Shown here: positions 28,885 through 46,862 of the stretch, piece by piece | Layout: the number at the start of each line of letters is the position of its first letter | How positions within the stretch are numbered: the first letter of the stretch is position 1 | Assembly: GCA_024281055.1 (NCBI GenBank) | Contig: JAMXLF010000019.1 | Location: forward strand, 1 to 64,000 | Length of the DNA: 64,000 bases | DNA from: Geobacteraceae bacterium | GTDB lineage: Bacteria > Desulfobacterota > Desulfuromonadia > Geobacterales > Geobacteraceae | Direction: 5' to 3' | Program-made: the position numbers and the translations under genes | The notes under the pieces: generated by a model | What the model was told of the DNA's origin: nothing | Seen by the model: only the letters and a program-made list of their open reading frames with translations | Database searches by the model: none

Positions 28885-30378
28885 TCAAAATCCGAAAAAA
28901 TTCCGAAGAAGGGTCAGATATTCGTCCTTCCTGGGAACCGTTTCTTTATCCTGGTCGCAGGATCTGCGCCGTTCGCTGTTGAGCTCTTCCCGCGTCGCCA
29001 GAACGGCGCTGAGGGCGTCCATGATGGCAGGGCTGTCACGAATGAGCGGCTCCAGCACTTCCTTGCTGACCTCCAGAAGCCAGACTTCCTCCATCGCCTC
29101 AACCGTGGCCTGGCGGAGCGCGCCGGTCAGCAAAGACATCTCGCCGAAGAAATCGCATCTCTGCAGGGCACCTATCGGAGTTTGACCCTGGCGTACCGAA
29201 AGTTCCCCGCGCAGGACTACGAAGAGCGAATCTCCCACCTCTCCTTCCCTGACGACCAGCTCTCCCGGGCCAAAGACTCTCAGCTTGGCATGTTCGGCGA
29301 GATAATGCTGTTCCTGCTCGCTGAGGATGCGGAAAAAATCGATTCGCATCAGCTCGTCCCTGATCCCCTCCTTCTTGATACTGAAGGGGGCACTGCGTTC
29401 CGTCACCGTAATGATCTCCTGGTGTGGATAGGGAAAACCGTATCCCTGCCTGGTGAACGCATACCATATCTTGCCGTAGAGACGATCCTTCACCTGCTCC
29501 CGCATGCCGTAATCCTTGAGCGTATACCTGAGCCGATAATTGATGCTGCTGTCGGCAAACCTCAGGACACGCACCTGGGGAGGAGGATCGCTGCAGACGT
29601 CCGCTTCACCCGCAAAAACCGACAGGAGGATATTCTTTGTCTTTTCCGGGGGAAGCTCGTAACCGAGGGAGATGTCGAGCATGGTCGATGCCAGTTCGGT
29701 ATCCTTCTCTGATCCGAGGCTTGTCACGACGTTCTGCATGATGAGATTGTTGGGCACCATCAGGATGGAGTTGTCAAAGGTTTTGAGCGAGGTATAGCGA
29801 AAGCCCACGTTGACGATCTTGCCGACCACATCCTTGTCTTTGATGGCTATCCAGGTATTCTTGCGCAGGTTGTCGTCGCTCTGGATGGAAAATCCCGACA
29901 GGACGTTGGTGAGGGTATTCTGCATGGCAAAGGCGATGGTGGCGGTGAGGACCGTGGTGGTGGTGACGATGGACGAGATTTCGATGTGAAAGACCACGCG
30001 CAGCGAAACGATGGCCGCCAGGAGATAGACAACGAGGGAGACGAGGTCCCGGACGAAGGAGGGGACTTCGCTGCGGGTCCGGTAATGGACGTAGACGTCG
30101 ATGATGAGATAGATGATGAGATTGGCGAGGCACAACAGCACGACGATGTGTCCCGCCCCCTGGAGCACCTGGTGATAGGACGTTGCCGCAACGAACGAAT
30201 CGGCGATGAGAAGCGCGAGCCCCAGAAGGGCGAGGCGGATGGTCCCCTGAGCGCACGTTGGGGGCACTGTCCCGCGGACCAGCCGTGAATGGAGGGAAAC
30301 GGCCGCAAAATAAAGAAAGACCGCACCGAGAAAGATAGCGCTGTCGGCTGCAAAGAGAGGCAGGTCGTGCAGATCCAT
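28885..30378 (-). CDS. MscS-type channel with C-terminal cyclic-nucleotide-binding domain
   Basis: The 497-aa protein has four to five membrane helices in the first ~170 residues. The last, ATIAFAMQNTLTNVLSGFSI, is the pore-lining helix of MscS channels and is followed by the MscS beta and C-terminal domains (to about 325). Residues about 345-460 form a CAP_ED domain with FGPGELVVREGEVGDSLF and the phosphate-binding cassette FGEMSLLTG...RQATV, including the Arg that contacts the cyclic phosphate. It is the last gene of the long operon and lies 19 bases after a CHASE2 adenylate cyclase. A cyclic-nucleotide-gated osmotic channel is the natural reading. Confidence 0.92.
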   Translation of the reverse strand: MDLHDLPLFAADSAIFLGAVFLYFAAVSLHSRLVRGTVPPTCAQGTIRLALLGLALLIADSFVAATSYHQVLQGAGHIVVLLCLANLIIYLIIDVYVHYRTRSEVPSFVRDLVSLVVYLLAAIVSLRVVFHIEISSIVTTTTVLTATIAFAMQNTLTNVLSGFSIQSDDNLRKNTWIAIKDKDVVGKIVNVGFRYTSLKTFDNSILMVPNNLIMQNVVTSLGSEKDTELASTMLDISLGYELPPEKTKNILLSVFAGEADVCSDPPPQVRVLRFADSSINYRLRYTLKDYGMREQVKDRLYGKIWYAFTRQGYGFPYPHQEIITVTERSAPFSIKKEGIRDELMRIDFFRILSEQEQHYLAEHAKLRVFGPGELVVREGEVGDSLFVVLRGELSVRQGQTPIGALQRCDFFGEMSLLTGALRQATVEAMEEVWLLEVSKEVLEPLIRDSPAIMDALSAVLATREELNSERRRSCDQDKETVPRKDEYLTLLRNFFGF

Positions 30379-30397
30379 CGTATTTCTCCTTCGTCCC

Positions 30398-32482
30398 TTA
30401 CTTCGTCCGCGCCACGAACACCCCGTCCCACCCGGCGCCGGGAGGATCCATCAGGAAATCCCGACAACGCTCCGCGTACAGGGCGGATGCCTTGTCACCT
30501 CCCTCCGCGAGTTCGGAGAAGAGCCGGAGCGCCCCGGCGAAATTCTTTCCCCGGTACAACGCAAGCCCTTCGGCAAATGGGGCGACGATGGCGTGATTAT
30601 CGACCATCAATTCAAAGACCGCAACAGGTTTCTGCTTCCCTTTGACCCGCACCAGGTCGATCTCCCGGAAGGTGAAATCGTCACCTGCACCTTCCCGTGT
30701 AGCGTCGCTCACGATGATATGGGCGCCGTACTGCTTGGTGAGGCCTTCCAGGCGCGAGGCGAGGTTGACGTTGTCGCCGATGGCGGTGTAATCGAAACGC
30801 ATATCCGCCCCCATGTTACCCACAACTGCCTCGCCGGTATTGATCCCGACCCCGATCTCGATCCGCGGAATCCCGCGTTTGGCGAACTCAGCATTCAAGG
30901 TTGCAAGTCTGTCGAGCATCCGCACCGCGCTGCGGCAGGCATATGCAGCATGACCGGCGACATCGAGGGGAGCATTGAAGATGGCCATGATCGCGTCGCC
31001 GATGTACTTGTCGAGGGTTCCCCGCTCTTCGAGTATGATATGAGTCATGGGGCTCAGGTATTCATTGAGGAGCTGAACGAGATCCTCCGGCGACACAGCT
31101 TCGGAGAGAGTAGTAAAACCACGGATGTCCGAGAAGAGGATGCTCACTTCCCGCTTCTCACCGCCGAGCTTCAGCCGCTCCGGATTCTTCACGATCTCCT
31201 CGACCAATTGGGGGGAAACATAGCTGCTGAACGCTTTCTTCAGGTAGCGCCCCCGTTTCTCCATCACCAGATTCCGGTACGCCTCCGCACCGACATAGGT
31301 GAGCCCCACCGGGACAATGGGGAAGATGACGCTCAGGTCGAGGCTAACGTGCTTGAAGAGGAGATAGTTGAGCACGAAGTAGAACCCGCAACCCAGGACG
31401 AAATAGACAAGTCCGACCAGGGTGCGCGGCGCATTGCTGAGGAGAAAGGCAAGAAGAATGGGGAGAAAGAACATGCACGCCATTTCCAGGCCGAACGTCC
31501 TCCCGTCCCGGAGGAGAAAGCGCTTGTCAAGGGCGTTGGCAGCAACCGTTGCGTGGATCTCCACCCCGGGGAGCGCCGGGTCGAAGGGGGTTGCCCGCAT
31601 GTCGTAGATGGCCGTCTCCGTCGTGCCGAGAAAAACGAGCTTTCCCCGCAGGGCGTTGACGGGGACCTTCCCGGCGAGCACGTCTGCGGCGGAAATGGTC
31701 GGGAAGCTCCCGCCAGGACCGTAGTAGTTGAGGGAAAGAGCACCCTGCTCGTTTACCGGCAAGGAAAGGGAACCGAGGGCGACGGAGCGGACCCCGAAGC
31801 CCGCCACGTCCACCATGACGTCCTTCCCCAGGTAGCGTCCGAGCGCCTTGAGGCCGAGGGACGGGTAGATGTTCCCGTCGTACATCATGAGGAGCGGCGA
31901 CTTCCTGAACAGGCCGTCGTCGTCGGGAATGGCGTTGAAGAATCCGAAATCGAGGGCTCCCGCACCCACAACCGGGATGTTGGCGTCAAGGCTCGGGAAC
32001 TCGGGGAGCGGCACGGCGGAGACCCCATCCTCGATCCGCAGGAACTTTACCTTTGCGGCGGCAATCTGCTCAAGGGCCAGTGGGTCGATCTTCTGCTCCT
32101 CGTCCCGGAAGAAATACCCCAGAACGACGTTGCCTGAAGCAGCCACGGCCCGCGCCAGCGCCCTGTCCTGCACCTCCCCCTGCTGCTCGGAGAAGACCAT
32201 ATCGACAGCGACTACCTTGGCGCCGCAGTCGGCCAGGCTCCTGACAAGCCTTGCGGTGACCTCCCGCGACCAGGGCCAGCGTCCGACCTCTTTGACGCTC
32301 TTGTTATCCACCGCCACCACTATCACGCTTGAGCTCGGGGCGACCGGTCCCCGGAGCCTGAACCGGGCATCCTTCAGGCGCAGGTCGACCTGCCGGACGA
32401 AGGGTAGCCCACTCCGGTAGAGAAAAAAGCCGATGAGTGCGGCGACAAGGGCGATTACCAGGAAGACGAGTTTCTTTTTCAT
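30398..32482 (-). CDS. CHASE2-domain adenylate cyclase (class III)
   Basis: This is a 694-aa membrane enzyme. One N-terminal membrane segment (residues 5-22) is followed by an extracytoplasmic CHASE2 sensor (about 30-325) with WPWSRE and GLFRKSP. Three membrane segments (about 330-400) lead to a class III cyclase domain (about 440-630). Metal-binding Asp are at 452 (FSDIRGF) and 496 (KYIGDAIMA). Lys492 and Asp564 fit ATP specificity, and Asn573 and Arg577 (NVNLASRLE) stabilise the transition state. All catalytic residues are therefore present. It sits directly upstream of a cNMP-binding MscS channel, likely its target. Confidence 0.94.
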   Translation of the reverse strand: MKKKLVFLVIALVAALIGFFLYRSGLPFVRQVDLRLKDARFRLRGPVAPSSSVIVVAVDNKSVKEVGRWPWSREVTARLVRSLADCGAKVVAVDMVFSEQQGEVQDRALARAVAASGNVVLGYFFRDEEQKIDPLALEQIAAAKVKFLRIEDGVSAVPLPEFPSLDANIPVVGAGALDFGFFNAIPDDDGLFRKSPLLMMYDGNIYPSLGLKALGRYLGKDVMVDVAGFGVRSVALGSLSLPVNEQGALSLNYYGPGGSFPTISAADVLAGKVPVNALRGKLVFLGTTETAIYDMRATPFDPALPGVEIHATVAANALDKRFLLRDGRTFGLEMACMFFLPILLAFLLSNAPRTLVGLVYFVLGCGFYFVLNYLLFKHVSLDLSVIFPIVPVGLTYVGAEAYRNLVMEKRGRYLKKAFSSYVSPQLVEEIVKNPERLKLGGEKREVSILFSDIRGFTTLSEAVSPEDLVQLLNEYLSPMTHIILEERGTLDKYIGDAIMAIFNAPLDVAGHAAYACRSAVRMLDRLATLNAEFAKRGIPRIEIGVGINTGEAVVGNMGADMRFDYTAIGDNVNLASRLEGLTKQYGAHIIVSDATREGAGDDFTFREIDLVRVKGKQKPVAVFELMVDNHAIVAPFAEGLALYRGKNFAGALRLFSELAEGGDKASALYAERCRDFLMDPPGAGWDGVFVARTK

Positions 32483-32500
32483 GGGCTTAAAGGCGCCTCC

Positions 32501-33544
32501 CTACCGCTCCAGCAGCCTCAGCAGGGTCTCCACGCTGTTTCTGTGCTTGCCATCGGGATATTCTTTCAGATACTGTCTGAACCGGGCCTTGGCCAGGTCG
32601 AGCTTTCCCATCTCGTACAGGGTCTGGCCGACGCTGTAAAGCGCGGTCTCCATCTGGGGAATCCGTGGATACTCCTCAAGGACGAGAAGGTATTCGGCCA
32701 GAGCGGCCTCCGGGTGCTTGAGGAACCTTCCGTACACGGCTCCCCGCTCAAGTCGCGCATCGGAGCGAATATCCGGCAGAGTGGTCAGGTCGAGGGCGAT
32801 CTGGAATACGTGGAGCGCCTCGTCGTAGCGGCCCCCGTCAGCCAGATAGTGGCCATGGTTGATGTCCCAGCGGGCGATGATGTTCGGGAGGTTGTCCGAA
32901 TCGGCCCACTCGGCCGGGGGAACCGTGCCGGTCGCCTGCTCGAAGGCTGATTTCGCCTTCGCCAGGGGGGTATCCGTCTCCACCTTCACCGCAGCCACCG
33001 GCCTGTATCCCCTGGTGTTCTGGGTCATTGTGTCCGCCGGCAGGGGCTCGCTCTCTCCGGCAGAGCCCGATACGGCAACCGTCCCCTCGTTGCCGAAAAA
33101 GACGTTGGCCGGTCCCTGGGCGAGCATGAGGAACTCCGTCCCCTTCACCCCTGCCACCGCGGTGCCGCTCTTCACCCTGATATCGGTCTGTTTGCCGGCC
33201 AGCTTCACCACCGAGGCCCGCAGTTTCCCTTGGACCAGGTTGAACGACCCTTCCCGCTTTTCCTTGCCGACGGTAAACGCGGATATCTCCAACTCCGAGT
33301 TGTTGGCGATGGTGAACCGGCTGTTGTCGGAGAGGGTGAGCTCGACCCAGCCGTCCTTGCCGGCCTTTACCCAGTTCCCTTCACCGACCTCCTGCCCCGG
33401 CGAAAGCGCCTTGTATGAGGCAGTGCCGTTTTTCCTGAACGAAACGCTCCCCTTTGCCCGGGTCACCTTGCCCACAGGAAGGGCAAAGGCTGCCTGGGCA
33501 AGGAGAAACAACAGCAGATGAACAATCAAAAAAACGTTCCTCAT
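32501..33544 (-). CDS. FecR-domain and TPR periplasmic protein
   Basis: The 347-aa protein starts at the ATG at 33544, after GGGAGGG; an ATG four codons earlier would bury that site. A signal peptide (residues 1-21) precedes a FecR-type beta domain (about 22-160: GKVTRAKGSVSFRK, VELTLSDNSRFTIA, VAGVKGTEF). A helical TPR region (about 210-345) has YDEALHVFQIALD and KARFRQYLKEYPDG. Such FecR proteins bind envelope or peptidoglycan-like ligands rather than act as anti-sigma factors, and often neighbour CHASE2 cyclases. It lies 18 bases upstream of the cyclase. Confidence 0.88.
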   Translation of the reverse strand: MRNVFLIVHLLLFLLAQAAFALPVGKVTRAKGSVSFRKNGTASYKALSPGQEVGEGNWVKAGKDGWVELTLSDNSRFTIANNSELEISAFTVGKEKREGSFNLVQGKLRASVVKLAGKQTDIRVKSGTAVAGVKGTEFLMLAQGPANVFFGNEGTVAVSGSAGESEPLPADTMTQNTRGYRPVAAVKVETDTPLAKAKSAFEQATGTVPPAEWADSDNLPNIIARWDINHGHYLADGGRYDEALHVFQIALDLTTLPDIRSDARLERGAVYGRFLKHPEAALAEYLLVLEEYPRIPQMETALYSVGQTLYEMGKLDLAKARFRQYLKEYPDGKHRNSVETLLRLLER

Positions 33545-33617
33545 AATCCCTCCCATACTTCATCGTATCGCGATCACATCATTCACTTTTCCGTTTACAA
33601 CCGACCGCTTCGATCTT

Positions 33618-36542
33618 TCACTTCCCCGCCTCATGGCTGACTGACTTCAGGGCCAAGGGGAAATCGGGGATCGTCCGCGGCTTGGCGGTGGTCGGGGTCT
33701 GTTTCCCGTCGGTCAATTCCTGCACCCGCTCGGAAAGCCAGAGGTCGAGGCTGGTGACAGTGATCCGCCCCTTGCCGGTGTAGTCGGCCTTACCCCTCAC
33801 TCCTTCGAGAAGCGCCTTGGTGAAGGCGCCGTTACCCCAGGACTCGTCTTCCAGAGAGTACTGCCCGCCGGTGGACGAGGCGAAGACCACCACGCCGTTC
33901 TCGGTGCTGGCGAGTTCGTTCACCACGGCGTTGACACTGCCCGTCCCCATTCTCCCCCCCATCACGTCGCCGGCGTGGCAGGTGTCGACGAAGAGGACCG
34001 CCTTGCCGGGGAGGGTCATGAGGGTGTCCCTGATCTCGCCGAAGACGACACCTGTTTGAGCAAGCTTTTTGGGGTCACCGTCGACCGGAACGAAATAATA
34101 GGTCCCGCTGGAGTCGGTCACGCCGTGGCCGGAGAGGAAAACGAGCGCCGTATCGCGGGGGCTCGCCGTCTGTCGCAGCCACCGGAGCCCATCGAGGACC
34201 GCCTCGTGTGTGGCAGCCGAGTCGGTCAGTACCCGCACGGTCACATCACCGTAGAGTCCTCCCTTTTGAAGGAGCATGAGGGAGGCGAAATCGCGGGCGT
34301 CCTTGGCCGCAAATGCGAGGGCCATCTCCTTGTCGGTATAGGCCCCGACCCCGATGGCAAGAATATGCAGCCGCGGCTGGACGGAGATTTCCTCAACAGC
34401 TTCACCGGCAGAGCGGGTAACCCTGACAACCGCCGGCTCGCTCGAAGCAAAACGGTTCTCGGCAATGACGGCGATCTCGCTCTCACCCGCGGGGAGCGGA
34501 ACGGCCACTTCGCGGAGTTCGCCCCGTGCCGCCCCATTATTCCGCTCTTTGAACTGCACGGGACGACCGTTCACCAGTACTCGTACGCCGGTCACGGGCT
34601 CGCCGGAGAGGGAGCGCACGGCAAAGGCGACGGTGGCCTCGCGGGTGTCGATCACGCTCCTTTCGGCCGGAGAGCTGATAGCGACCACCGGCGGCAGGAG
34701 GGTGGAGATGTGCCTCGTCTCTCCCCTCCTCCCGGAGGCGGCATCCGCAAGCCTTACCGCCTCCCCCTCGTCCCCGGCTGCAAGGATGCGGGCAATCACA
34801 TCAGGGCGACAGTAAACGGCGCGAAAACGGGAGAGCGGGAAGAAATCGGCACTCAGTTCGGGACCGTTGTTCAGATGCCAGCCCGCCAGTTCCTCCCCCC
34901 CCACCGAGGCGTCGTAATAACCGGAAGATGTCCAGAGAACCCAGCGCTTTCTGTCGGCATTGAGAAAAAAGGCGATGAGTTCCTTCCCGTCGGACAGGCG
35001 GTACCAGCGAATGCTGCCATCGCCCGAAGAAACCGCGGCAACCCTGCCGTTCCCGGCGATATTCACTCCCCATACTATGCCGGGAGCCGGGACACACCAG
35101 CGCTCCCTGCCATGGCGGTCGAAAAAGCGCAGGTGCCAGTCAGTGCCGAGGAGAAACCCCGATGCGTCAGGCGCCACTGCCAGACTGCGGGCGGTTTCGT
35201 GTACCCCGAGCCTGAGAGGCCTGCCGTTCAGGCTCGGGCTCGGGCCGTTGCGCCATCCGGTTACGTGCAGGCCGGGCGCATCCGTCAATGCAGGAACGAG
35301 CGACAGTGAAGCGTCAGTCCGCAGCGACCGTTCAGCAACGGCAAAGACGGCGCTGGATTTTCCGCCCGTACCCGGCCCGAAACCGACGACGGAGCCGTCC
35401 GCCGAGAGAAGGAGCCGGCCATCCCGGTTGTCGACGGCGCTCGCTCCCATGTGCGCAAGGACCATCCCATCGGCATCGACAACCCCGATCTCGGGGCCTG
35501 CGGCGGCAAAGGCGAGCGCACCGCTTCCCGCCGGGATGATTTGCATGATGTTGCCGTCCGCAACGGGAAGGTCGACGTACTTCCCCTTCCCTCCCTCGTC
35601 CCAGCGACGCACCAGGAATTTCCGGCCGTCCCGGTAGCTGCCGGCAGCATAGAGCGCGGTGCCGTCAGGGGACCAGGCGACACTGAAAAGGCTCCCGCCG
35701 TCCGCCCCCCCTGGAGGCGTAAAGAGTGGCGTCAGGTCTTTCCCCGCGAGGACGGCGACTTTGCGCGAATCGTCGCATCCCACCGCGATTCTGCCGCCGT
35801 CGGCCGAGAAAGCCACCGAAAAGGGGCGCTCCCCGTTGAGGGCCTTCTCTTTGGCAATGAGCCTGAACCCCTTGTCGTACAGCCGGACAAAACCATCCCA
35901 GGAGACGGTCGCCAGTCGCCCGTCACGGTCGAAATCTAGCCCGTAGCAGTCGCTGCCGTAGTGAGCGTCGACCCCGACCAGCTGCCAGTCCGCGACGCGG
36001 ACGAGGTAGACCCCCTTCCCCGCCCCGAGCCCCACGGCCAGCTGCTTTCCGTCGCGGGAATAGGCGAGGGTCTTGATGACGTCGGGAAAGCCGTCGAGCC
36101 GCTTGAGGAGGCGGCCGCTGGCCCGGTCGAAGAAATAGACGGCTGCATTCTTGTTCCAGTCCCAGCCGGTCCAGCCGCCGCATGCGATGGTGGCCCCGTC
36201 GGGGGAGACGGCCACGGCAAAGAGTTTCCCCTCGTTCCCCACACCGATGGGGGGACGTATTACCTTTACAGGCAACAAGGTTTTCCCGGTCCCCGGTCCC
36301 CGGCCCCCGGCCCCCGCCAAGTCCCACACCCGCACGGTCTTGTCATCGGAGGCGGTGACCAGCCAGCGGCCGGCCGCGTCGGCGGCTATCCCCTTGATCA
36401 TCGCCGTGTGCATACCGGTCTCGATCCGGAGGATCGGCTCCGGCGGCGGTCCGGCAAACGCCGGGGCCGCAGAGAGGATAAATGAGGACACCATGACAAG
36501 TAAGAGCAGTCTGTGCCTTATTGCTCGTGAATCTCCAGCCAC
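33618..36542 (-). CDS. WD40-repeat caspase-like (C14) protease, exported
   Basis: The 974-aa protein starts at GTG 36542. A signal peptide (to about residue 30, ending AFA) is followed by an N-terminal propeller of WD40-like repeats (about 40-560; e.g. MIKGIAADAAGRWLVTASDD split as MIKGIAADAAG, WLVTASDDKTVRVWD). A linker with an Ig-like part (about 610-710) leads to a caspase p20 domain. The catalytic dyad is visible: SGHG with His near residue 803 and DTCHAGD with Cys near 854. The signal peptide places the protease outside the cytoplasm, unusual for a caspase homolog. Its start is one base past the stop of a 32-aa membrane peptide. Confidence 0.9.
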   Translation of the reverse strand: MAGDSRAIRHRLLLLVMVSSFILSAAPAFAGPPPEPILRIETGMHTAMIKGIAADAAGRWLVTASDDKTVRVWDLAGAGGRGPGTGKTLLPVKVIRPPIGVGNEGKLFAVAVSPDGATIACGGWTGWDWNKNAAVYFFDRASGRLLKRLDGFPDVIKTLAYSRDGKQLAVGLGAGKGVYLVRVADWQLVGVDAHYGSDCYGLDFDRDGRLATVSWDGFVRLYDKGFRLIAKEKALNGERPFSVAFSADGGRIAVGCDDSRKVAVLAGKDLTPLFTPPGGADGGSLFSVAWSPDGTALYAAGSYRDGRKFLVRRWDEGGKGKYVDLPVADGNIMQIIPAGSGALAFAAAGPEIGVVDADGMVLAHMGASAVDNRDGRLLLSADGSVVGFGPGTGGKSSAVFAVAERSLRTDASLSLVPALTDAPGLHVTGWRNGPSPSLNGRPLRLGVHETARSLAVAPDASGFLLGTDWHLRFFDRHGRERWCVPAPGIVWGVNIAGNGRVAAVSSGDGSIRWYRLSDGKELIAFFLNADRKRWVLWTSSGYYDASVGGEELAGWHLNNGPELSADFFPLSRFRAVYCRPDVIARILAAGDEGEAVRLADAASGRRGETRHISTLLPPVVAISSPAERSVIDTREATVAFAVRSLSGEPVTGVRVLVNGRPVQFKERNNGAARGELREVAVPLPAGESEIAVIAENRFASSEPAVVRVTRSAGEAVEEISVQPRLHILAIGVGAYTDKEMALAFAAKDARDFASLMLLQKGGLYGDVTVRVLTDSAATHEAVLDGLRWLRQTASPRDTALVFLSGHGVTDSSGTYYFVPVDGDPKKLAQTGVVFGEIRDTLMTLPGKAVLFVDTCHAGDVMGGRMGTGSVNAVVNELASTENGVVVFASSTGGQYSLEDESWGNGAFTKALLEGVRGKADYTGKGRITVTSLDLWLSERVQELTDGKQTPTTAKPRTIPDFPLALKSVSHEAGK

Positions 36543-36543
36543 T

Positions 36544-36642
36544 TCAGAGTCCTTCCTTTATCATTTTGGCGATCAGCACCAGAATGAACAGGATGATGAG
36601 GTCAAGCAGGAACAGGCTGCCTACAACTGTCTCCATTGACAT
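36544..36642 (-). CDS. 32-aa single-pass membrane peptide
   Basis: The minus strand encodes MSMETVVGSLFLLDLIILFI and then LVLIAKMIKEGL. The ATG at 36642 has an AAGGAG site seven bases upstream and the stop lies one base before the GTG of the caspase gene. One hydrophobic helix with a Lys-rich C-terminal tail is expected. The strong ribosome site and tight coupling support a real gene. It may help translate or anchor the caspase protein. Confidence 0.65.
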   Translation of the reverse strand: MSMETVVGSLFLLDLIILFILVLIAKMIKEGL

Positions 36643-36742
36643 GGCTCTTCTCCTTCGGAAAGTTTGGCATCAAACCGTCTGAAGAAATTTGACAGACAGA
36701 GCGCCGGATTCCTGCATCGTGCCGGGACGCAAGCCAACTCTT

Positions 36743-38671: not shown

Positions 38672-38726
38672 GCCGCCCCCCTGTAGGACCATGGTATTCC
38701 GTCCGAAACCGTCGTATGCCGGCATT

Positions 38727-39866
38727 CTATTTCAAATACTTCAGGTTGATCGTCGAGGGGGTGAACGCCTCGACGTGAAGGTTCCCCTTCTGGTTGATGC
38801 TGTTGGCCAGGTAGATGGGATTCTCCGGATAGCTGACGACGAACTCGCCGAGCCCCTTTTCCTCCACGCTGGTCACCCAGGCGAGGTTCTGCAGGACTTC
38901 CTTGACCGCGAAGCTGTCCTTCAGCTCGGCAATCCCGGCAACTTTCACCTCGATGCGCTTCGCCACTCCCTTGATGTACGAGCCGACCTTGTCGAGAAGT
39001 ACCGGTCCCATTTTTTCGGCAATTTCATTGAGTCCCTGGGCCGCGGCATCCTCCACGCTCCCCGCGAGACCCTTTCCCTGCTCCGTTCCTGCCGAGAGGA
39101 TGACCATTTTACCGGAAGGGTCCCGGGTGATGAGCCGGTAGGTTAACCGCACCGTCACGCTGTTGAACGGCATGGCTATGCCGTACCCGACGTGTTCACC
39201 CTTCCTGGTGGAAACGGTGTAGTCAACCTTCCCGACCAGCAGCACATTGGCGAGGAACTTGTACATCATGCTGCGCAGGGAGAGGAAATTGCCGCTTTTC
39301 AGCGCCTGATCCATTTCCGCCGCATCCAGGGCGTGGGTCGGGGCCACATCGACCACCGTGTACCCCTGCCCGGTGAGCTTGCCGATGAGGGTTTCCGACA
39401 GGACGTTCGTCTCCTCGTAGCGCCCCCCCCCACCGCTATTTCCCGGCTTGCGGGCAGGGAGGAAAACGGCGATGGCGTTGTTGAGCGCCAGCCCGGCAAT
39501 CGCATCCTTCGCCCGCACCGGCTCCACACACGCGTTCACCTTCACCGTTACCGTATCCGGGCCGTTGTTTACCCGGAGCACCTTGTAGCGGGAAACCACC
39601 CCGTTGATCTGCCTGCTGATCGCCTCATCGACCAGCATCATGTTCTGGACGACGCTCTGCGCCTTCACCTCTGCCCCCACGGCCTGCTCCACGGCCGCCC
39701 ATTTCGCCCGGGCAACGGCCTCCGCCTTGGCGGATGGCAGGTCGTTATTGACGATGGCGGCCTCGCCTTCGGCGTCGAGGCAGATGGGCGCGGCAAAGGA
39801 AGATGTGCCGGACAGTGCGACGAATAGCATCGCGAGCAGTGGTATAGAGCGCATGGGCATGGGCAT
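38727..39866 (-). CDS. Exported protein with FlgT-N/LPP20-like N-terminal domain
   Basis: The 379-aa protein starts at the ATG at 39866 (GGAG four bases upstream) and has a signal peptide to about residue 26. Residues about 27-120 (AEGEAAIVNNDLPSAKAEAV, RAKWAAVEQAVGAEV, SRYKVL) look like the N-terminal domain of FlgT and related envelope proteins. The middle part resembles TolB/CsgG-type alternating strands (GQGYTVVDV). It is followed 55 bases later by the transglutaminase. A direct flagellar role is unlikely, as no flagellar gene is near. Cell-envelope partner function is inferred. Confidence 0.75.
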   Translation of the reverse strand: MPMPMRSIPLLAMLFVALSGTSSFAAPICLDAEGEAAIVNNDLPSAKAEAVARAKWAAVEQAVGAEVKAQSVVQNMMLVDEAISRQINGVVSRYKVLRVNNGPDTVTVKVNACVEPVRAKDAIAGLALNNAIAVFLPARKPGNSGGGGRYEETNVLSETLIGKLTGQGYTVVDVAPTHALDAAEMDQALKSGNFLSLRSMMYKFLANVLLVGKVDYTVSTRKGEHVGYGIAMPFNSVTVRLTYRLITRDPSGKMVILSAGTEQGKGLAGSVEDAAAQGLNEIAEKMGPVLLDKVGSYIKGVAKRIEVKVAGIAELKDSFAVKEVLQNLAWVTSVEEKGLGEFVVSYPENPIYLANSINQKGNLHVEAFTPSTINLKYLK

Positions 39867-39951
39867 GTTTCTCCGTTTTAGATAACGCCAAAGAGGAGAT
39901 ACAGGCGCCGCACGCCTCCATCTCCCCTTTGGCCAGCCTGCCGGCAACGGC

Positions 39952-40890
39952 TTACTTCAGCACGAAGGCGACCTTGGCGCCGGCAAGGAAGTTCCCCTTC
40001 TGATTCGCCGAGAAGATGGTCACCGCGTCTTCGTCGGAAACCTGGAGGTCAGCCGCACTGACCGTGCCGACCGCCTTGACGACCAGCGGGTTCTTGACCC
40101 CGCGCGAGCCGAGGGCCGCCCGGGCCTTGTCAACGCTGTTGGTATACTCGCCGCATCCCTGCTCCACCAGCACCTTCTGGCTCACTTTTGAAGGATCATA
40201 GAGGAGCTCTTTCTTGGTGCTGAAGATCCGGTTGATGAGGGCCGGCTTGAAGTTCTGCTCGGTGGCGTCGATGATCAGGCCGTCGTACTTCTCTTCCAGC
40301 GGTTCCACCGAATGTTTGTACTTCAGTGCCTGTTTTCCGTCCACCTCGGTCAGGGTCTTTTTCAGATCGGGATCCTTGAACATCTTCTCGTAAATGGCCG
40401 AGGCGAATCCCTTCGGCCCGTGCATGCCCAGCTTGACGATGGCAATGGCGGTATCCTTCTCCTTGCTGTAGTCCTGGACCACTACCTGGACGCCCTTGAC
40501 GATTCCCGCCACCGCCGACCTGACGGTGTCGTACTGCAGCATGCCGTCCTTGACGAGGGTGTCCCCGACCAAGGCAAAACCGTTGAGGTACTCGGCGACC
40601 GCCCGCTGGGCGACCACCACGGCGGCGCGCTTGGCCCCTTGCTCCCGCTGTGCGGGGGTACGGGCATCTGGGTTCCCCACCGACTCCCCGAAGAAAATGA
40701 TCGCCTCCTGTTGAAACGCCGCGTTATCGTCCCTTCCCGACGGGCTGCCGGTCAGGGTAAGGTTCTGCTGGCTGAGCCAGGTCTTCGCCTTGGTGAACGT
40801 TTCGTCGATCTGGATGGAATTCTCATCCGCCGCGTGCCCGTTCCCCGCAAGCCCCGCCGTCAGCAATACCGCAACCAGTAACTTCTTCAT
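39952..40890 (-). CDS. Exported LPP20-like envelope protein
   Basis: The 312-aa protein has a signal peptide MKKLLVAVLLTAGLAGNGHA. The region QREQGAKRAAVVVAQRAVAE (about residues 80-99) followed by an EYLNGFALVGDTLV segment resembles the LPP20/YqiC-type repeat of envelope lipoproteins, but no lipobox Cys is present. A second domain covers about 195-312. It ends FLAGAKVAFVLK. It shares general plan and neighbourhood with the next gene downstream. Function unknown; periplasmic by signal. Confidence 0.7.
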   Translation of the reverse strand: MKKLLVAVLLTAGLAGNGHAADENSIQIDETFTKAKTWLSQQNLTLTGSPSGRDDNAAFQQEAIIFFGESVGNPDARTPAQREQGAKRAAVVVAQRAVAEYLNGFALVGDTLVKDGMLQYDTVRSAVAGIVKGVQVVVQDYSKEKDTAIAIVKLGMHGPKGFASAIYEKMFKDPDLKKTLTEVDGKQALKYKHSVEPLEEKYDGLIIDATEQNFKPALINRIFSTKKELLYDPSKVSQKVLVEQGCGEYTNSVDKARAALGSRGVKNPLVVKAVGTVSAADLQVSDEDAVTIFSANQKGNFLAGAKVAFVLK

Positions 40891-40905
40891 AATCCCCTCC
40901 TGTTA

Positions 40906-42120
40906 TCAATAGATGTTTATTCTCTGTTTCAGCACCCTGATGGCGAGGAGCGCCTCGGCCCCGTCAACCGGCTCGTCGGGCCGGAATTCGCCTGAAAGCT
41001 CTCCCTCCATGATCCCCCGGGTGGTCACGTTCATGACCGCATTGTAGAAAGGTGACGTGGCACGCACATCGGGAAACGGCGACTTGTCCTGGCCGAAATA
41101 GGCGGTGGCCAGCTTTTCGTCGCCGGTAAGCTTGATCAGCACGTCTTCCAGGGTGAAGGCCATCTCTCCCCTCTTGACGCTATCGGCGGGCTTGAAGAGG
41201 TATGCCTGCGTGGTTTCGTCAAACTTCGGCTCCAGCCCCCGCACCTTCCATTTCATCATGGTGAGGATCTCTTCCCTGAAAGGATCGTTGAGCACGTCGG
41301 CCGGGGTAAACTCCGCCTTCATTTTCGCCACCTGGGAGGCCACGGGGATGCGACCGGCAAAGAGCTTCTCCAGCTTCATCTCGTCGATCAGGAGTGCGGC
41401 GAGGTCCCCGCGGGAAATGGCATCCTTGACCGCGATCTTCTTCCCCACATCCCCCACGGTTATCCCTGCCAGGGCGCGGACGATCCGGTCGGTCTTCTTC
41501 CACCCCCGGTCAGCCTTCTCGTGCCATTTCCCCTCCCGCTTGGCGTTCAGGACGTCGGCGAAACGGTCGCGGGCCTTCTGGAACTCCAGGGCTTCGAGGC
41601 AGGCGACCCCCATGAAGTATCTGAGCGCCTCGGTCCCCTGGTAGTAGGTGAGGGTGCGCTCGTCGACCTTCAGCCTCTCTCCGGCCCTGAACGCGTCCTC
41701 GGCCTCCTCCAGCCATCCCTTGTTCCTGACCAGGGTCGCAACCCGGATCCGGGCCACGCAGAGGTCGAATTCCTCGTCGGGCTTATCGGCATATTTCTCC
41801 GCCTTCTTCAGGCTCTCCACGACCCTCTCCATCTCCACCTGACGAAAGCCGGCATCCGGCTGTACCTTCACCTTCTCGGCGGAGACGATGGCAAGCCCGG
41901 CGTAGGCCTTGGCGAAACGCTCGTCCAGGTAGATCGCCCGCTCGAACTTTTCCTGGGCAACGGCTATCTTGCCGTTTTCAAGGGCGGTCATCCCCGTCAG
42001 GTAGTGGTGCTCGGGGTTGTCTTCCGGCGAGGTGCTGCGGACCTGGGGTCCCGAGCAGCCAGCCATGGCGAGGAGCAACGCCCCCAGTGCACACAGCACG
42101 AACAGCATCTTTCTTCTCAT
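40906..42120 (-). CDS. TPR/SLH-domain lipoprotein
   Basis: The 404-aa lipoprotein has lipobox LLAMAGC (Cys at about residue 21). TPR-like helices follow (about 38-215: HHYLTGMTALENGKIAVAQE split HHYLTGMTALENG, YLDERFAKAYAGLA). S-layer-homology-type segments come next (ISRGDLAALLIDEM; FPDVRATSPFYNAVM; GEFRPDEPVDGAEALLAI). SLH domains bind cell-wall polymers, so the protein may tether the complex to peptidoglycan. A strong AGGAGGTCGACG ribosome site precedes the ATG. A 106-base gap separates it from the protease gene upstream. Confidence 0.85.
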   Translation of the reverse strand: MRRKMLFVLCALGALLLAMAGCSGPQVRSTSPEDNPEHHYLTGMTALENGKIAVAQEKFERAIYLDERFAKAYAGLAIVSAEKVKVQPDAGFRQVEMERVVESLKKAEKYADKPDEEFDLCVARIRVATLVRNKGWLEEAEDAFRAGERLKVDERTLTYYQGTEALRYFMGVACLEALEFQKARDRFADVLNAKREGKWHEKADRGWKKTDRIVRALAGITVGDVGKKIAVKDAISRGDLAALLIDEMKLEKLFAGRIPVASQVAKMKAEFTPADVLNDPFREEILTMMKWKVRGLEPKFDETTQAYLFKPADSVKRGEMAFTLEDVLIKLTGDEKLATAYFGQDKSPFPDVRATSPFYNAVMNVTTRGIMEGELSGEFRPDEPVDGAEALLAIRVLKQRINIY

Positions 42121-42226
42121 CGTCGACCTCCTTGTGATTTCATCAAATCGAAAAATCTCGTGCGATTATTTTATGAATCTTGAGACGGACACTTTGGCAA
42201 CTTTGCGCGGACCCGAAGAAAAAAAT

Positions 42227-43945
42227 TCACTCCAGGGCGAAAACCATCCACCCGCTCACGTTCCCGGCCTGATTCACCGCGAAGATGATCCCGCTCTTCC
42301 CGTAGACGCGGTACTCTCCCTGCCGCGATACCATGACCCGCGTGGGCTCGCCGTACGCAAGCCGCATCGCCTCCGCCATCTGGCCGATCCGTATCCCGCG
42401 GGCGGTCTCTCCACCGTACCCCTTTGCAGTCGCGACAAAGTGTACGGGCCGGCCGTCGATGATGACCACGGTATCCTCGACGCTTTTCCTTTGCCGGGAA
42501 TAGACGGTCAGCGTCGGCTCACCCTTGTCCACCCCTTTCAGGGAGAACGCGGCGACATCCGCATCCTTCCTGAAACCATCGCGGGCGGAGACGCCGCCGA
42601 TGGTCTCGCGCAGGCCGGCGACTGCTTCGGAACCTGGCGGAAGCGGGGTGCCCTTTTCCTCCTGCAGCACACCGAGGTTGAGGGTGGCGGCGTGATTACC
42701 CATATTGCGGGCGGCCGCCATGTCGACCATCGCCCGCTCCCGGTTCCCCCCGGCTGCGTAGGCAATGCCGCGAGCCACCAGGGCGCTGGCCAGGGTCGTG
42801 TTCTCGTTATCCTTCTTGGCAAGCTCCATCCCCTTGTTGGCAAGGATGACGGCCGTATCGTGGTCGCCAAGCAGGATATCGACCGCAGCCAGGTTGACAC
42901 AGGCAACGGCGTACCCCTTGTCGCGCTGGACCGCCTTGTCGAAGTTGTCCGCCGCCTTCTGAAGGAGCCGAACCCGGCGCTCCGCCGTCTCGTCCTGTAT
43001 CCCCTTGGCCCGCGCACCCCTGGCACGCAGCCTCGTTTCCGCGTCAAACTCGAAGGGGTAGGCGAATTTCACCTCTCCGGGCCTGGAGAGGCGGAGCGCC
43101 TCCAGCGCATAGGCCACCCCGGCGTTATTGAACATCTCCCGGCTCGGGAAGGTGTGGGCGAGATGCTCGAACAGACGCGCCGCCTCCTCGTACTTCTCCA
43201 GGAGGAGAAGATGTTTCGCCGCCTCGAACACCGGTACCATCTTCTGCAGGTTTCCTTCGGCTCGCTCGGCGATGGCCCGCCGTTCCGTCCGCGAGGGGTA
43301 GTTGGGGAGCTTGTCGGGAAGGTCATAGGCGGCGTAGATCATCTCCAGTGCCCGGGGCGCGACGCCCAGGGTGTCGTATCCCGCGAGATAACCGTAGAAG
43401 CCCCCGAAATAGTCCGCCTCGGTCTCCCGTTTCATGACCTCCTCGTAGGTGGCGGCCTTGATCATCTTCTTCCCCATGTCGAGGGAGGCGAAGGAGTTGC
43501 CGAAGTCCCCCACCCAGCCGTGCCGCATGTAGTAGTGGGTCAACTCGTGGCCAAGGAGGAATGCCAACGCGCTTTCCCGGTCGTCACCCAGGGAGGCGAA
43601 CAGGTCGTAGACCTTTTCGTCGCAGGCTATGTACCCCTCCCGCAGCGGGGCGTTCTCCGCCTCGATGCCGATCGCCCCTTCGGTGCCGGGATCGGACCAG
43701 GCGACGGCATTGCGGCTCTCGGCGCCGACCGGGCTGACGATCAGGCGCGGTGGGATCCTTCCGTCGCCGAAGGCGCGGGCGACGTTGTCGTAGACTTTCC
43801 TGACCGCCTGGTACTTGGCGTTGTCGGCCGGCAGGGAAGCTGCGGCAAAGGCGGGGCCGGCCGTCGCTGCGGCGAGGAAAAACAGCGCCAGGGCGCCCAG
43901 TCCCCGGGCCGATTCCCCCTTGGCTCTATACATGCGTGGCAGCAT
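42227..43945 (-). CDS. M48-type metalloprotease with TPR region
   Basis: The 572-aa product starts at the ATG at 43945, eight bases after GGAG and directly after the previous stop. The frame is open further upstream but overlaps the preceding gene. Signal peptide about residues 1-34. An M48 peptidase domain carries the zinc motif HELTH (about 132-136) with YFGGFYGYLAGYD downstream carrying the third ligand region. Helical repeats (about 260-470) and a C-terminal beta domain (about 490-572) follow. It resembles BepA-type proteases that act on outer-membrane proteins. Secreted to the periplasm. Confidence 0.87.
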   Translation of the reverse strand: MLPRMYRAKGESARGLGALALFFLAAATAGPAFAAASLPADNAKYQAVRKVYDNVARAFGDGRIPPRLIVSPVGAESRNAVAWSDPGTEGAIGIEAENAPLREGYIACDEKVYDLFASLGDDRESALAFLLGHELTHYYMRHGWVGDFGNSFASLDMGKKMIKAATYEEVMKRETEADYFGGFYGYLAGYDTLGVAPRALEMIYAAYDLPDKLPNYPSRTERRAIAERAEGNLQKMVPVFEAAKHLLLLEKYEEAARLFEHLAHTFPSREMFNNAGVAYALEALRLSRPGEVKFAYPFEFDAETRLRARGARAKGIQDETAERRVRLLQKAADNFDKAVQRDKGYAVACVNLAAVDILLGDHDTAVILANKGMELAKKDNENTTLASALVARGIAYAAGGNRERAMVDMAAARNMGNHAATLNLGVLQEEKGTPLPPGSEAVAGLRETIGGVSARDGFRKDADVAAFSLKGVDKGEPTLTVYSRQRKSVEDTVVIIDGRPVHFVATAKGYGGETARGIRIGQMAEAMRLAYGEPTRVMVSRQGEYRVYGKSGIIFAVNQAGNVSGWMVFALE

Positions 43946-43956
43946 CAGGGCATCTC

Positions 43957-44418
43957 CTAGAACTTGACCGAAACCTTCACGGTGAAATCCTTTTCGGACA
44001 TTCTGCCGTTGACATCGCCGATGGCCACCCTGAACCGGTAAAGGCCAGGAGGGAGCGAAACATTGGCGATCCGGACCCCCTCCGTGGTGGCATAGGGCTT
44101 GATCCGGGGCGTCAGGTCGATGGTGGTGCTCTTCAGGCATTCCATCTTCAGGGTGGCGAGGTCCACGGCACCTCCGGCCCGCGTGGCGAACCCGACCTCC
44201 AGCGGGAACGAGGGCTGCCCCTCGCCGACTTCTACATCCTTCACCCTGATCGCCGGCCCGTCGCTGCGCAGGCTGGTGGAAAAGCCGAACGATCTCGCTT
44301 CGGGCAGCGCCGCTTCCTCGCGGGTCAAGAGCTCGAGTGTCGCGGCACAGGTCCCAAGGGAGATGGCACCGAGAGAGAGCAGAAACGCAGCAACGACTAT
44401 CAACGGGAACTTTTTCAT
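43957..44418 (-). CDS. Small secreted beta-rich protein
   Basis: The 153-aa protein has a signal peptide (about residues 1-25, ending TCA). The rest alternates short strands and turns (PGLYRFRVAIGDVNGRMSEK near the end), as in Ig-like or fibronectin-like folds. An AAGGAGG ribosome site precedes the ATG. It follows the anti-sigma gene by 76 bases and the protease gene starts 11 bases after it. No family recognised. Confidence 0.7.
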   Translation of the reverse strand: MKKFPLIVVAAFLLSLGAISLGTCAATLELLTREEAALPEARSFGFSTSLRSDGPAIRVKDVEVGEGQPSFPLEVGFATRAGGAVDLATLKMECLKSTTIDLTPRIKPYATTEGVRIANVSLPPGLYRFRVAIGDVNGRMSEKDFTVKVSVKF

Positions 44419-44494
44419 GGCGGTCCTCCTTGCCCATTCACTCCGGATTCGTTCTCTCCGCCTGTTGGACGGACAGATGGTAATTTCCCGTCCC

Positions 44495-45553
44495 TCAAAA
44501 CAACCGGATCAGCTCGTCCAGCTCCCTTTCCACCGATCCGAAATCGATGGTGTGCGGTTCCCGCACCTTGCAGTCCAGCTCCAGCAGGGCATGTGCCGCT
44601 CCACGGGGGGCTCCAGCGCCGGCCAGGCCCTTCCGGAAATACGTGGGCACCCCACCGGCGAAGAACTTCCCGTTGCCGGCCCGTGCCGCCATCCGTGCCC
44701 CCTCAGCCCACGCGCCGAGACGGGCGTAGACCATCTTGTCACGGGAAAGCGCCCGCTCGACGATGCCGCTCCCGCCCGCATAGCCGCTCGGCTTCCCCCC
44801 CTGTTCCAGCTTTTCCACGAGTCGCTCCAGGTCGGCAACGTTGTCGTCGCCGCTCAGCGCCTGGAGGAGGGAGCCGAGGCGGTTCGCCTCCGCCTGCGCC
44901 CGGTCGCTGTCGTCGGCAAGAAGGGCGATCTCCAGGTCCATGGCGCTCACGCCGATCCGGAACGAGATGGCCGTATCGTCCCCCTTCTCGGCAAAGCCGT
45001 AAGTCCTGTCACGACCGCCGGTCAGGAGGGCGAGCTGCCGCGGGTCACCTGACCGGGCAAGCTGTCGCGCCAGCCGTTCGGCCGTCGGCAGAGGCTCTTC
45101 CTTCCGGGTGACAGGCCCGCTTTCCTTTTCCACACCATGGGAGTTCCCCTTTTCGGACTGGACGGCAGCAGGACTGAGCGACTCCGCACGCTGCGCCACC
45201 TGCACCTTTTCCTGGGGGGATTGCCGCAGGGTTATGGTCAGGGCTACGACGAGAACCGCGGCCACAGCCAGGACGGAGGAGGCAGCATACCACTTCCGGT
45301 TGCTCACGGTTGCAGTGTTCTGCACCAGTTCGCGGGCCGTGACGTAGATATCGCGGCACCTCCCGCACTCCGCCAGGTGCCCCAGCAGGCTGTCCCGCTC
45401 GTCAGCGCTCATGGCTCCGTCCACCAGCGCGGCCATCGCTTCGGAGGACGGACACGACGTGGCGCCCGCGCGGTCTCCGAGCGCGCGGGCCATGGCGCGC
45501 CCCAGGACCAGGTCGCGTTCCTTCGGTTGGTCGATTCTCCGGCTCTCGTTCAT
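44495..45553 (-). CDS. Membrane anti-sigma factor with zinc-finger (zf-HC2)
   Basis: The 352-aa protein has an N-terminal anti-sigma zinc finger with the H-x3-C-x2-C pattern GHLAECGRCRD (about residues 58-68). One membrane segment (about 87-108) and a ~240-residue extracytoplasmic domain follow, rich in charged helices. The finger is expected to hold the adjacent sigma factor, and the outer domain to sense an envelope cue. It lies next to the sigma gene in the usual order. Not a canonical RseA or RsiW. Confidence 0.85.
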   Translation of the reverse strand: MNESRRIDQPKERDLVLGRAMARALGDRAGATSCPSSEAMAALVDGAMSADERDSLLGHLAECGRCRDIYVTARELVQNTATVSNRKWYAASSVLAVAAVLVVALTITLRQSPQEKVQVAQRAESLSPAAVQSEKGNSHGVEKESGPVTRKEEPLPTAERLARQLARSGDPRQLALLTGGRDRTYGFAEKGDDTAISFRIGVSAMDLEIALLADDSDRAQAEANRLGSLLQALSGDDNVADLERLVEKLEQGGKPSGYAGGSGIVERALSRDKMVYARLGAWAEGARMAARAGNGKFFAGGVPTYFRKGLAGAGAPRGAAHALLELDCKVREPHTIDFGSVERELDELIRLF

Positions 45554-45556
45554 GGG

Positions 45557-45658
45557 TCATCCCGAAAAGTTGGTGGTATTCCGTTGCGGCAGGGTGGAAA
45601 GAAGCTTTCGCACCGATACCATCACCGCCTGTTTTTCTTTGACGGACATCTCCACCAT
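45557..45658 (-). CDS. Possible 33-aa ORF between sigma and anti-sigma genes
   Basis: The minus strand reads MVEMSVKEKQAVMVSVRKLL and then STLPQRNTTNFSG, ending three bases before the anti-sigma ATG and starting three bases after the sigma stop. It fills the 108-base gap exactly. The ribosome site is weak (GAAA only), so it would rely on coupling. The amphipathic helix looks protein-like, but it could be chance. Confidence 0.35.
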   Translation of the reverse strand: MVEMSVKEKQAVMVSVRKLLSTLPQRNTTNFSG

Positions 45659-45661
45659 TTT

Positions 45662-46594: not shown

Positions 46595-46672
46595 AACAGT
46601 AAAGACTACTCAGGCTGATAAGACACTGGTATCAAAGGAAAAATGCTTCGTGAAACCAGCGCACGAACCACG

Positions 46673-46708
46673 AAAAAACGCCCAATCCGATGACGAAAAA
46701 TGGGCGTT
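46673..46708 (-). terminator. Intrinsic terminator in the sigma-gene leader
   Basis: On the minus strand AACGCCCA pairs with TGGGCGTT, followed by a T run. It lies between the GEMM-I aptamer and the sigma-factor start. The aptamer's TGGGC (near 46756) could pair with GCCCA of the terminator arm as an antiterminator, so ligand binding would favour termination. The sign of control is inferred. Confidence 0.75.
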
Positions 46709-46741
46709 AATCAGCCAACGAGGAAACAGCTGGCGAAATTT

Positions 46742-46826
46742 ACCTTCTTCGGCGGCCCAGCCATCCGCAGCTGCGGATCTGTGACTCTGCGTCCCCGGAT
46801 TGCTCCGGGTTTGCTCTTATCGGAGG
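46742..46826 (-). ncRNA. GEMM-I-like cyclic-dinucleotide riboswitch
   Basis: Minus strand order: GAGCAAACC, hairpin CCCGGA-GCAA-TCCGGG with a GNRA loop, GGGACGCAGAGTC, a second stem GATCCGCAGCTGCGGATGGC, then GGGCCGCCGAAG. The GCAAACC / GNRA hairpin / GGGACGCA core is diagnostic for GEMM-I. Deviations are AGAGTC for AAAGCC and GGGCC for GGGTT. It begins at the predicted transcription start and precedes a terminator and the sigma gene, so it should control the whole downstream operon. Confidence 0.7.
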
Positions 46827-46833
46827 GATAAAT

Positions 46834-46862
46834 ATTATGTTGTAAAGAGTACGCTGATACAA
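46834..46862 (-). promoter_or_regulatory. Candidate promoter of the sigma/envelope operon
   Basis: On the minus strand TTGTAT (46862-46857), 17 bases, CATAAT (46839-46834). Transcription would start near 46827, just at the 5' end of the riboswitch. The -35 is weak (four of six). Confidence 0.45.

Follow-up and report, generated by a model that had tools for sequence, protein, structure and literature searches.

A conserved sigma factor, caspase and cyclase cassette in Geobacter-type bacteria with a possible role in envelope surveillance

Why would a sigma factor, a caspase, an adenylate cyclase and a cyclic-nucleotide-binding channel stand in line behind a riboswitch? The question is raised by a 64,000-nucleotide (nt) stretch of DNA from a Geobacteraceae bacterium (GenBank assembly GCA_024281055.1, contig JAMXLF010000019.1, positions 1 to 64,000; the window), in which region 28885-46862 holds a riboswitch and then 12 annotated genes, all on the minus strand in an open reading frame (ORF) check. 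In the order of transcription, the riboswitch is followed by genes for an extracytoplasmic function (ECF) sigma factor, a zf-HC2 anti-sigma factor, a small Y_Y_Y-like protein, an M48-like/TPR protein, a TPR/SLH protein and a FlgP/LPP20-like protein, and then by those for a FlgT_N protein, a transglutaminase, a WD40-caspase, a FecR/TPR protein, a CHASE2 cyclase and an MscS-type channel with a cyclic nucleotide monophosphate (cNMP)-binding domain. We propose that these genes form an envelope-surveillance cassette, inherited or exchanged as a unit, in which protease, sigma factor and cyclic AMP (cAMP) would be joined in a loop, and we put the probability of this reading at roughly 0.45.

The cassette is a conserved, self-contained cluster. 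Eleven of the 12 genes, all except the channel, are clustered in Geobacter sp. UBA9964 (G208; loci L044, L127), in Geomonas sp. Red32 (G209; L045, L126) and in the single-contig G205 (L202, L203), with 37-81% identity to the window and in a nearly constant order. The initial annotation, made from the window alone, had pictured a self-contained unit whose genes should be linked in related genomes, and both expectations hold: none of 19 ORFs flanking the cassette in the window (8 were selected and 11 taken from an automated list, which possibly includes false ORFs) matches the flanks examined around the other cassettes, some of which extend over only a few kb. Less complete versions are found in G210, with nine of the 12 genes on two contigs (sigma factor to transglutaminase, and transglutaminase to cyclase; no match to the channel, to FlgT or to the small exported protein was obtained), in G041, with cassette parts on two contigs, and in G255, where the sigma factor, anti-sigma factor, M48, SLH, FlgP-like and FlgT genes occur together with other caspases. 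All counts were taken from tblastn and Pfam, because labels from whole-ORF profile hidden Markov models bleed between genes; the exception is the anti-sigma neighbours in G273 and G204, which come from the whole-ORF profile alone.

In a class-wide survey of 277 genomes, the sigma family is present in 17 and the WD40-caspase in 21, and both occur together in nine genomes against 1.3 expected (hypergeometric P 2e-7, kinship ignored). Within the window's family, the genomes with the sigma factor and those with the WD40-caspase are the identical seven. Furthermore, an anti-sigma relative lies at most two genes from the sigma factor at 15 of the 17 sigma loci (it is absent in G256 and G261, and the G144 relative shows 20% identity), and a caspase or CHAT protein is found near the sigma factor, in a stretch of up to about 20 kb, at ten of them (the window, G205, G208, G209, G041, G255, G273, G037, G204 and G051). 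At the remaining loci, the caspase is on another contig (G210), or a WD40 protein only (G250), a C10 peptidase (G266), an M48 protein (G267) or a TPR protein (G256) is present, and no caspase, CHAT or other protease was recognised in the stretch around the sigma factor in G261 and G144. These protease-type neighbours suggest that the sigma pair tends to accompany proteases generally, the window cassette being one form of this association. In G037 (L040, L041), a related sigma/anti-sigma pair is followed by a CHASE2 protein, and several WD40-caspase relatives and a TPR-CHAT protein lie within about 25 kb.

In the working that we propose, a membrane-spanning zf-HC2 anti-sigma factor would hold the ECF sigma factor, which upon release would drive the cassette. 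An assembly in the periplasm or outer membrane may be formed by the FlgP/FlgT-like, SLH/TPR and transglutaminase proteins after their export, and a change of the envelope or contact with a surface would lead the exported WD40-caspase and M48 protein to act on this assembly or on the outer part of the anti-sigma factor. The FecR/TPR protein and CHASE2 would pass the state of the envelope to the cyclase, yielding cAMP inside the cell, and the loop would have two inside outputs, sigma factor release and cAMP. In relatives, a phosphodiesterase would terminate the cAMP signal; in the window genome, a cAMP-gated MscS-type channel would take the phosphodiesterase slot, and a cyclic AMP-GMP (cGAMP) riboswitch added in front would allow the cassette to be made only at high cGAMP. 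Gene clustering and intact active-site motifs are seen in the sequences and the placement of the proteins is predicted, while all causal arrows of this loop are inferred.

Export is predicted for eight proteins, among them the caspase and the M48 protein; a crude hydrophobicity/topology scan flagged the N-terminus in seven of the eight, and the signal peptide of the FlgP-like protein was read from the sequence by eye. The anti-sigma factor, the cyclase and the channel are predicted to lie in the inner membrane, with the sigma factor and the cyclase domain in the cytoplasm. The sigma factor matches Sigma70_r4 above the Pfam cut-off and region 2 slightly below it (21.9 vs 24.0), with no match to region 3, and the anti-sigma factor has one transmembrane-like segment at residues 91-109 followed by about 240 amino acids. 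This is the make-up of an ECF sigma/zf-HC2 pair, with regions 2 and 4, no region 3 and an adjoining zf-HC2 membrane protein. The cyclase bears class III cyclase motifs. The consensus motifs against which the active-site and cNMP-pocket motifs were read are those that we take to be valid for these families.

WD40-caspases of the window type are widespread over several phyla, at least 485 candidate stretches having been confirmed and 80 loci analysed. The caspase is predicted to be catalytically intact by motif, and its His and Cys are both present in 73 of 79 aligned rows (78 ORFs and the query), with gaps at these positions in three of the other six. The AlphaFold2 model is good (predicted local distance difference test score, pLDDT, 87.7), and a seven-bladed propeller matches its residues 45-366 (Z 39.7, root-mean-square deviation 1.7 over 284 residues); the fold search with the whole model was filled by matches to this N-terminal propeller and informs on the propeller alone. 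By clustering, DUF4384-type proteins occur at five of the 80 caspase loci and a transglutaminase at four.

The output end of the cassette differs between genomes. In G205, G208, G209 and G210, the four sigma cassettes with a resolved end, the cyclase is followed by a metallo-beta-lactamase-fold protein, which is predicted to be a cAMP phosphodiesterase. The L044 protein, the only one tested by Pfam, matches class-II cAMP phosphodiesterases (44.7 bits vs 23.7, residues 45-104) and has also a stronger general Lactamase_B_2 match. In the window genome, the phosphodiesterase relative (59% identity) is on another contig and the channel occupies its slot. This channel has the cNMP pocket motif FGEMSLLTGALRQAT with its Arg and combines MscS pore domains with an intact C-terminal pocket, as in bacterial cyclic nucleotide-gated (bCNG) channels, and is predicted to be gated by cAMP. 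It was not found in any other cassette examined. Long relatives (39-50% identity) were found in one other family, in 25 genomes, while within the window's family the window genome is the only one with such a channel; other matches cover the pore domain at no more than 30% identity. In 21 of the 25 relatives, the channel has a dihydroorotate-dehydrogenase-type motif as its neighbour (Pfam-confirmed in the single locus tested), and in none of the 25 is there a cyclase motif in flanks of up to 1.5 kb. The initial annotation had let the cassette end in cAMP production and channel gating. The adenylate-cyclase-type output stands, but channel gating is not a general rule, because the channel is in no other cassette and its closest relatives are mostly beside dihydroorotate-dehydrogenase-type genes.

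The input end likewise has a feature of its own. The riboswitch is a member of the c-di-GMP-I (GEMM-I) family, and its base at RF01051 model position 11, which we take to be Vc2 position 20, is an A. Vc2 position 20 has been called a selectivity factor for cyclic dinucleotides (PMC9262584), and an A-to-G change at nucleotide 20 is reported to switch the GEMM-Ib element of Gmet_0970 from cGAMP to c-di-GMP (PMC6456294). Because of the A at the selectivity base, the predicted ligand of the cassette riboswitch is cGAMP, which refines the plain riboswitch call made earlier. A predicted terminator hairpin, missed by a simple terminator scan, lies between the aptamer and the start codon. A genome-wide RNA family search yielded 41 c-di-GMP-I matches, 40 of them above the cut-off, and the selectivity base is A in 20 and G in 10 of the 30 riboswitches with a locus; for G. 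sulfurreducens, 17 GEMM-I riboswitches are reported (PMC6456294). Many of the riboswitches in the window genome are near-identical copies of one A20 type, several without a close downstream ORF in a simple scan. The same genome has 26 GGDEF matches, and two of the 23 with a readable motif carry Ser at the Hypr position, taken as 26 residues before the third motif residue (offset from the residue numbers given in PMC6456294).

A second A20-type riboswitch heads another operon of this genome (L256, G000:C77:24500-33891; G000 is the window genome), which encodes FlgT_N/CsgG, TPR/CsgG and fibronectin-III proteins and whose FlgT protein is 27% identical to the cassette FlgT over 160 residues; exported proteins of this kind are thus predicted to be under cGAMP control at more than one place. 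Within the window, a further A20-type c-di-GMP-I riboswitch (27739-27663, minus strand, 50.5 bits) is followed by a T-run and a 67-amino-acid Cys-containing ORF (27558-27355), which has no NCBIfam match and no relative at the 29 other riboswitch loci compared.

Riboswitch control as a general feature of the cassette is not supported, since the element is found at the cassette in the window genome only: the loci searched for other cassettes yielded no riboswitch at the Rfam gathering score, and L126 and L127 had none even when E was allowed up to 0.5. In Geobacter sp. OR-1 (G051), a riboswitch lies about 8.5 kb beyond its caspase and ahead of another ORF. Whether UBA9964 has lost the element is uncertain, because a run of N lies upstream of its first gene. 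As far as sequence comparison goes, the predicted cGAMP control and the channel are additions in the window genome. With riboswitch and channel unconserved, the core would consist of the sigma/anti-sigma pair, the exported proteases with the FlgP/FlgT-like proteins, and the FecR-CHASE2 cyclase.

For the window genome itself, a bolder reading would place three second-messenger steps in one operon, from cGAMP-binding RNA to the sigma cassette, from caspase to CHASE2 cyclase and from cAMP to channel. Since the output slot holds a phosphodiesterase elsewhere, the cassette would in such a three-step relay have a replaceable end. We regard this relay as rather unlikely.

Several observations weigh against the surveillance loop. 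A CHASE2 cyclase is found in the flanks of only 7 of the 80 caspase loci by clustering (8 by phmmer, one of them weak). Outside the Geobacter-type cassettes, such neighbours comprise two Nitrospirae, in which the cyclase lies 13 nt behind the caspase, and one Desulfuromonadales metagenome-assembled genome with the cyclase directly in front (32% identity), all of which count in favour of the loop, as well as one case on the other strand and one weak match. The sigma factor and the caspase are linked on one contig in only four of the nine genomes that have both (the window, G205, G208 and G209); in the other five, the contig ends inside the cassette (G210, G041), the two genes are on separate contigs (G051, G256) or they lie about 0.9 Mb apart (G204). 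The anti-sigma factor shows just 37-47% identity among its four best relatives. OR-1 has eight cassette genes in a different order with no sigma pair among them. Behind its cyclase comes a protein that looks GAF/HD-GYP-like by sequence, the phosphodiesterase relative being on a different contig. In addition, the LDKYIGD motif of the OR-1 cyclase (L050 64-2169) has its Lys replaced by Gln; this residue, which is Lys in the other five aligned, presumably belongs to the adenine-binding motif, so that the substrate of the enzyme has possibly changed or its activity been lost. Finally, when the upstream regions of seven sigma loci were compared in a two-block search against block-shuffled controls, no common promoter motif emerged, which leaves autoregulation by the sigma factor unsupported. 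A candidate short word common to the sigma upstream regions of the window and Red32 was spotted by eye.

The features of the region are collected in Table 1.

Table 1. Features of the cassette in the window, in order of transcription
Feature	Position	Strand	Evidence
c-di-GMP-I (GEMM-I) riboswitch aptamer, predicted cGAMP (GEMM-Ib) type	46748..46825	-	RF01051 54.3 bits vs gathering 35
Predicted intrinsic terminator of the expression platform	46670..46710 (borders approximate)	-	Hairpin and U-run in minimum-free-energy fold of leader, z -2.71
ECF-type sigma factor, 310 amino acids	45662..46594	-	TIGR02937 58.3 bits vs cut-off 42.9
zf-HC2 anti-sigma factor	44495..45553	-	PF13490 27.1 bits vs cut-off 22.2; HLAECGRC motif
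Small exported protein (predicted)	43957..44418	-	Weak Y_Y_Y match, Pfam 15.1 bits, below cut-off
M48-like metallopeptidase with TPR, predicted exported	42227..43945	-	M48 19.2 bits vs Pfam cut-off 20.3; HELTH at 133
TPR/SLH lipoprotein-like protein	40906..42120	-	SLH 59.6 bits vs cut-off 20.8
FlgP/LPP20-like protein, predicted exported	39952..40890	-	Profile match to solved lipoproteins
FlgT_N protein, predicted exported	38727..39947	-	FlgT_N 29.0 bits vs cut-off 28.8
Transglutaminase-like protein with Pro-rich linker, predicted exported	36743..38725	-	Transglut_core 88.9 bits vs cut-off 23.0; GNCQNYA
Possible 32-amino-acid peptide ORF, single transmembrane segment, with Shine-Dalgarno	36544..36642	-	Sequence only
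WD40-propeller caspase, His806/Cys855, predicted exported	33618..36542	-	WD40 and Peptidase_C14, 59.6 bits vs cut-off 21.4
FecR/TPR protein, predicted exported	32501..33556	-	FecR 47.6 bits vs cut-off 24.0
CHASE2 class III adenylate cyclase	30398..32482	-	CHASE2 203.6 bits, Guanylate_cyc 89.4 bits
MscS-type channel with cyclic-nucleotide-binding domain, bCNG type	28885..30378	-	Three Pfam domains above cut-off

The gene calls, strand and order of the one-strand block from sigma factor (46594) to channel (28885) were right as first annotated, as were the sigma, zf-HC2, SLH, FlgT_N, transglutaminase, WD40-caspase, FecR, CHASE2 cyclase and cNMP-MscS labels, all of which are supported by profile matches. 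The M48 label falls short of the Pfam cut-off but is accompanied by the HELTH motif, and the LPP20-like label has no Pfam match, but the middle part of this protein matches solved lipoproteins (9hmf, 'Lipoprotein, putative', 1.1e-7; FlgP, 8z5n, 8e-4). Its AlphaFold model, built from three sequences, is too poor for use (pLDDT 32.5), and the FlgT_N protein gave no match in the PDB up to E 1. Thirteen genes had been counted; 12 are annotated, and a possible thirteenth is the 32-amino-acid ORF, whose stop lies one base ahead of the caspase start and which is confined to the window in a comparison of six loci, being missing upstream of five other cassette caspases. This ORF sits in the single exception to the intergenic gaps of 1-108 nt, the 200 nt between transglutaminase and caspase. 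As for gene starts, the sigma factor has an alternative start at 46582 that agrees in alignment with the start of its Red32 homologue, the M48-like gene starts at 43945 (a longer ORF from 44437 overlaps the preceding gene), and for the FlgT_N gene an ATG at 39866 with a Shine-Dalgarno sequence is likelier than the TTG at 39947. The small exported protein shows 48-61% identity at five other loci. Sigma-70-type promoter sites and terminator-like sites inside the cassette are not above chance (4 vs 3.2 and 15 vs 17.7 in shuffles, respectively), and a single transcript for the whole cassette is possible. On the opposite strand, a cytochrome-like gene with CXXCH motifs (28057-28857) is convergent with the cassette end, 27 bases from the channel gene.

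Could the cassette instead be an assembly locus, in which an outer-membrane structure is put together from FlgP/FlgT-like, CsgG, SLH and transglutaminase proteins and matured by the proteases, with the cyclase as a side branch? We consider this unlikely, while it stays a serious rival because proteins of structural appearance rank among the most conserved, the TPR/SLH protein with 67-76% identity among full-length matches and the FlgP-like protein with 65-81% in relatives. CsgG, DUF4384 and an extra transglutaminase join the cassette in Red32, the FlgP profile match fits such a structure, and the GEMM-Ib genes reported for G. sulfurreducens include those for surface cytochromes and pili (PMC6456294). 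An assembly locus leaves unexplained, however, why a dedicated ECF sigma/anti-sigma pair is present and a cyclase is paired with a phosphodiesterase, and in the two Nitrospirae, admittedly on short contigs, the caspase and cyclase form a pair without the other members.

That these are just neighbouring envelope genes that share no pathway is improbable. Gene sets do vary, and so does gene order, with FlgT ahead of the sigma factor in UBA9964 and G205 and another order in OR-1, but eleven genes stay together in four genomes, including that of the window, with no shared flank genes, and the sigma factor and the caspase co-occur. In another reading, the genes would serve phage defence or cell death, with a channel that opens in response to a cyclic nucleotide and killing by the caspase, as in Pycsar or bacterial caspase immunity. 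This reading agrees with the sporadic distribution (17 and 21 of 277 genomes) and with PADLOC matches of the cyclase domain (PycC, 92.4 bits), the caspase (47 bits) and the cNMP domain (Pycsar effector models), but is quite improbable, weakened because the caspase, the M48 protein and six more proteins have signal-peptide-like N-termini and because the PADLOC matches are domain-level, with none for the other seven of ten proteins searched; moreover, the cyclase bears a CHASE2 sensor and the channel is absent from other cassettes.

The envelope-surveillance cassette has relatives among described systems. Sigma-70 factors are reported in metacaspase operons of Myxococcus, Anaeromyxobacter, Haliangium, Sorangium, Ralstonia and Fibrobacter, and one cyanobacterial caspase-CHASE2 fusion is mentioned in the same source (PMC3501461). 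The cassette likewise brings a sigma-70 gene and a caspase gene together in a block on one strand; in the published cases, some of them from related Deltaproteobacteria, the two are in one predicted operon. It differs from them, as far as that account describes them, by an anti-sigma factor, a CHASE2 cyclase, FecR, a transglutaminase, the FlgP/FlgT set, a riboswitch and a channel (PMC3501461). In the EACC2-caspase systems, genes for an ECF sigma factor, TPR proteins and a caspase also stand together and CHASE2 is a variable domain of the second gene, but there a constant EACC2 domain is described as coupled to the caspase (PMC8195603). The window caspase, compared with these systems, begins like a protein with a signal peptide and carries a WD40 propeller; no search for EACC2 was made. 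Sigma factors in caspase operons are already in print; a larger set that adds a CHASE2 cyclase, FecR and FlgP/FlgT-like proteins did not turn up in the literature searched, with subscription papers mostly outside the search.

What many bacterial caspase homologues do is an open question, and one survey could assign no function to 70 of 217 caspase operons (PMC3501461). The cassette suggests a specific answer that can be tested, namely that proteases signal across the envelope to a second messenger, as it ties an apparently exported WD40-caspase, intact by motif, to an anti-sigma factor and a sensor predicted to make cAMP. With a phosphodiesterase or a channel at the same place and a riboswitch on one copy, input and output may be separable in the same gene set. 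bCNG channels of the MscS superfamily are reportedly the subject of work by Caldwell in 2010 and Malcolm in 2012 (cited in PMC4560390). The window channel resembles them in having a cyclic-nucleotide-binding domain behind its MscS pore domains; it lies directly behind an adenylate cyclase, whereas the flanks of its 25 relatives show no cyclase motif within up to 1.5 kb. At the other end of the cassette, the Geobacter GEMM-Ib regulon is similar in aptamer family, A20, terminator-type platform, Hypr-type GGDEF proteins and exported-protein targets (PMC6456294). The targets described for that regulon are cytochromes, pili, lipoprotein transpeptidases and a transcriptional regulator (PMC6456294), whereas the window riboswitch is placed before an ECF sigma factor that heads a putative signalling cassette.

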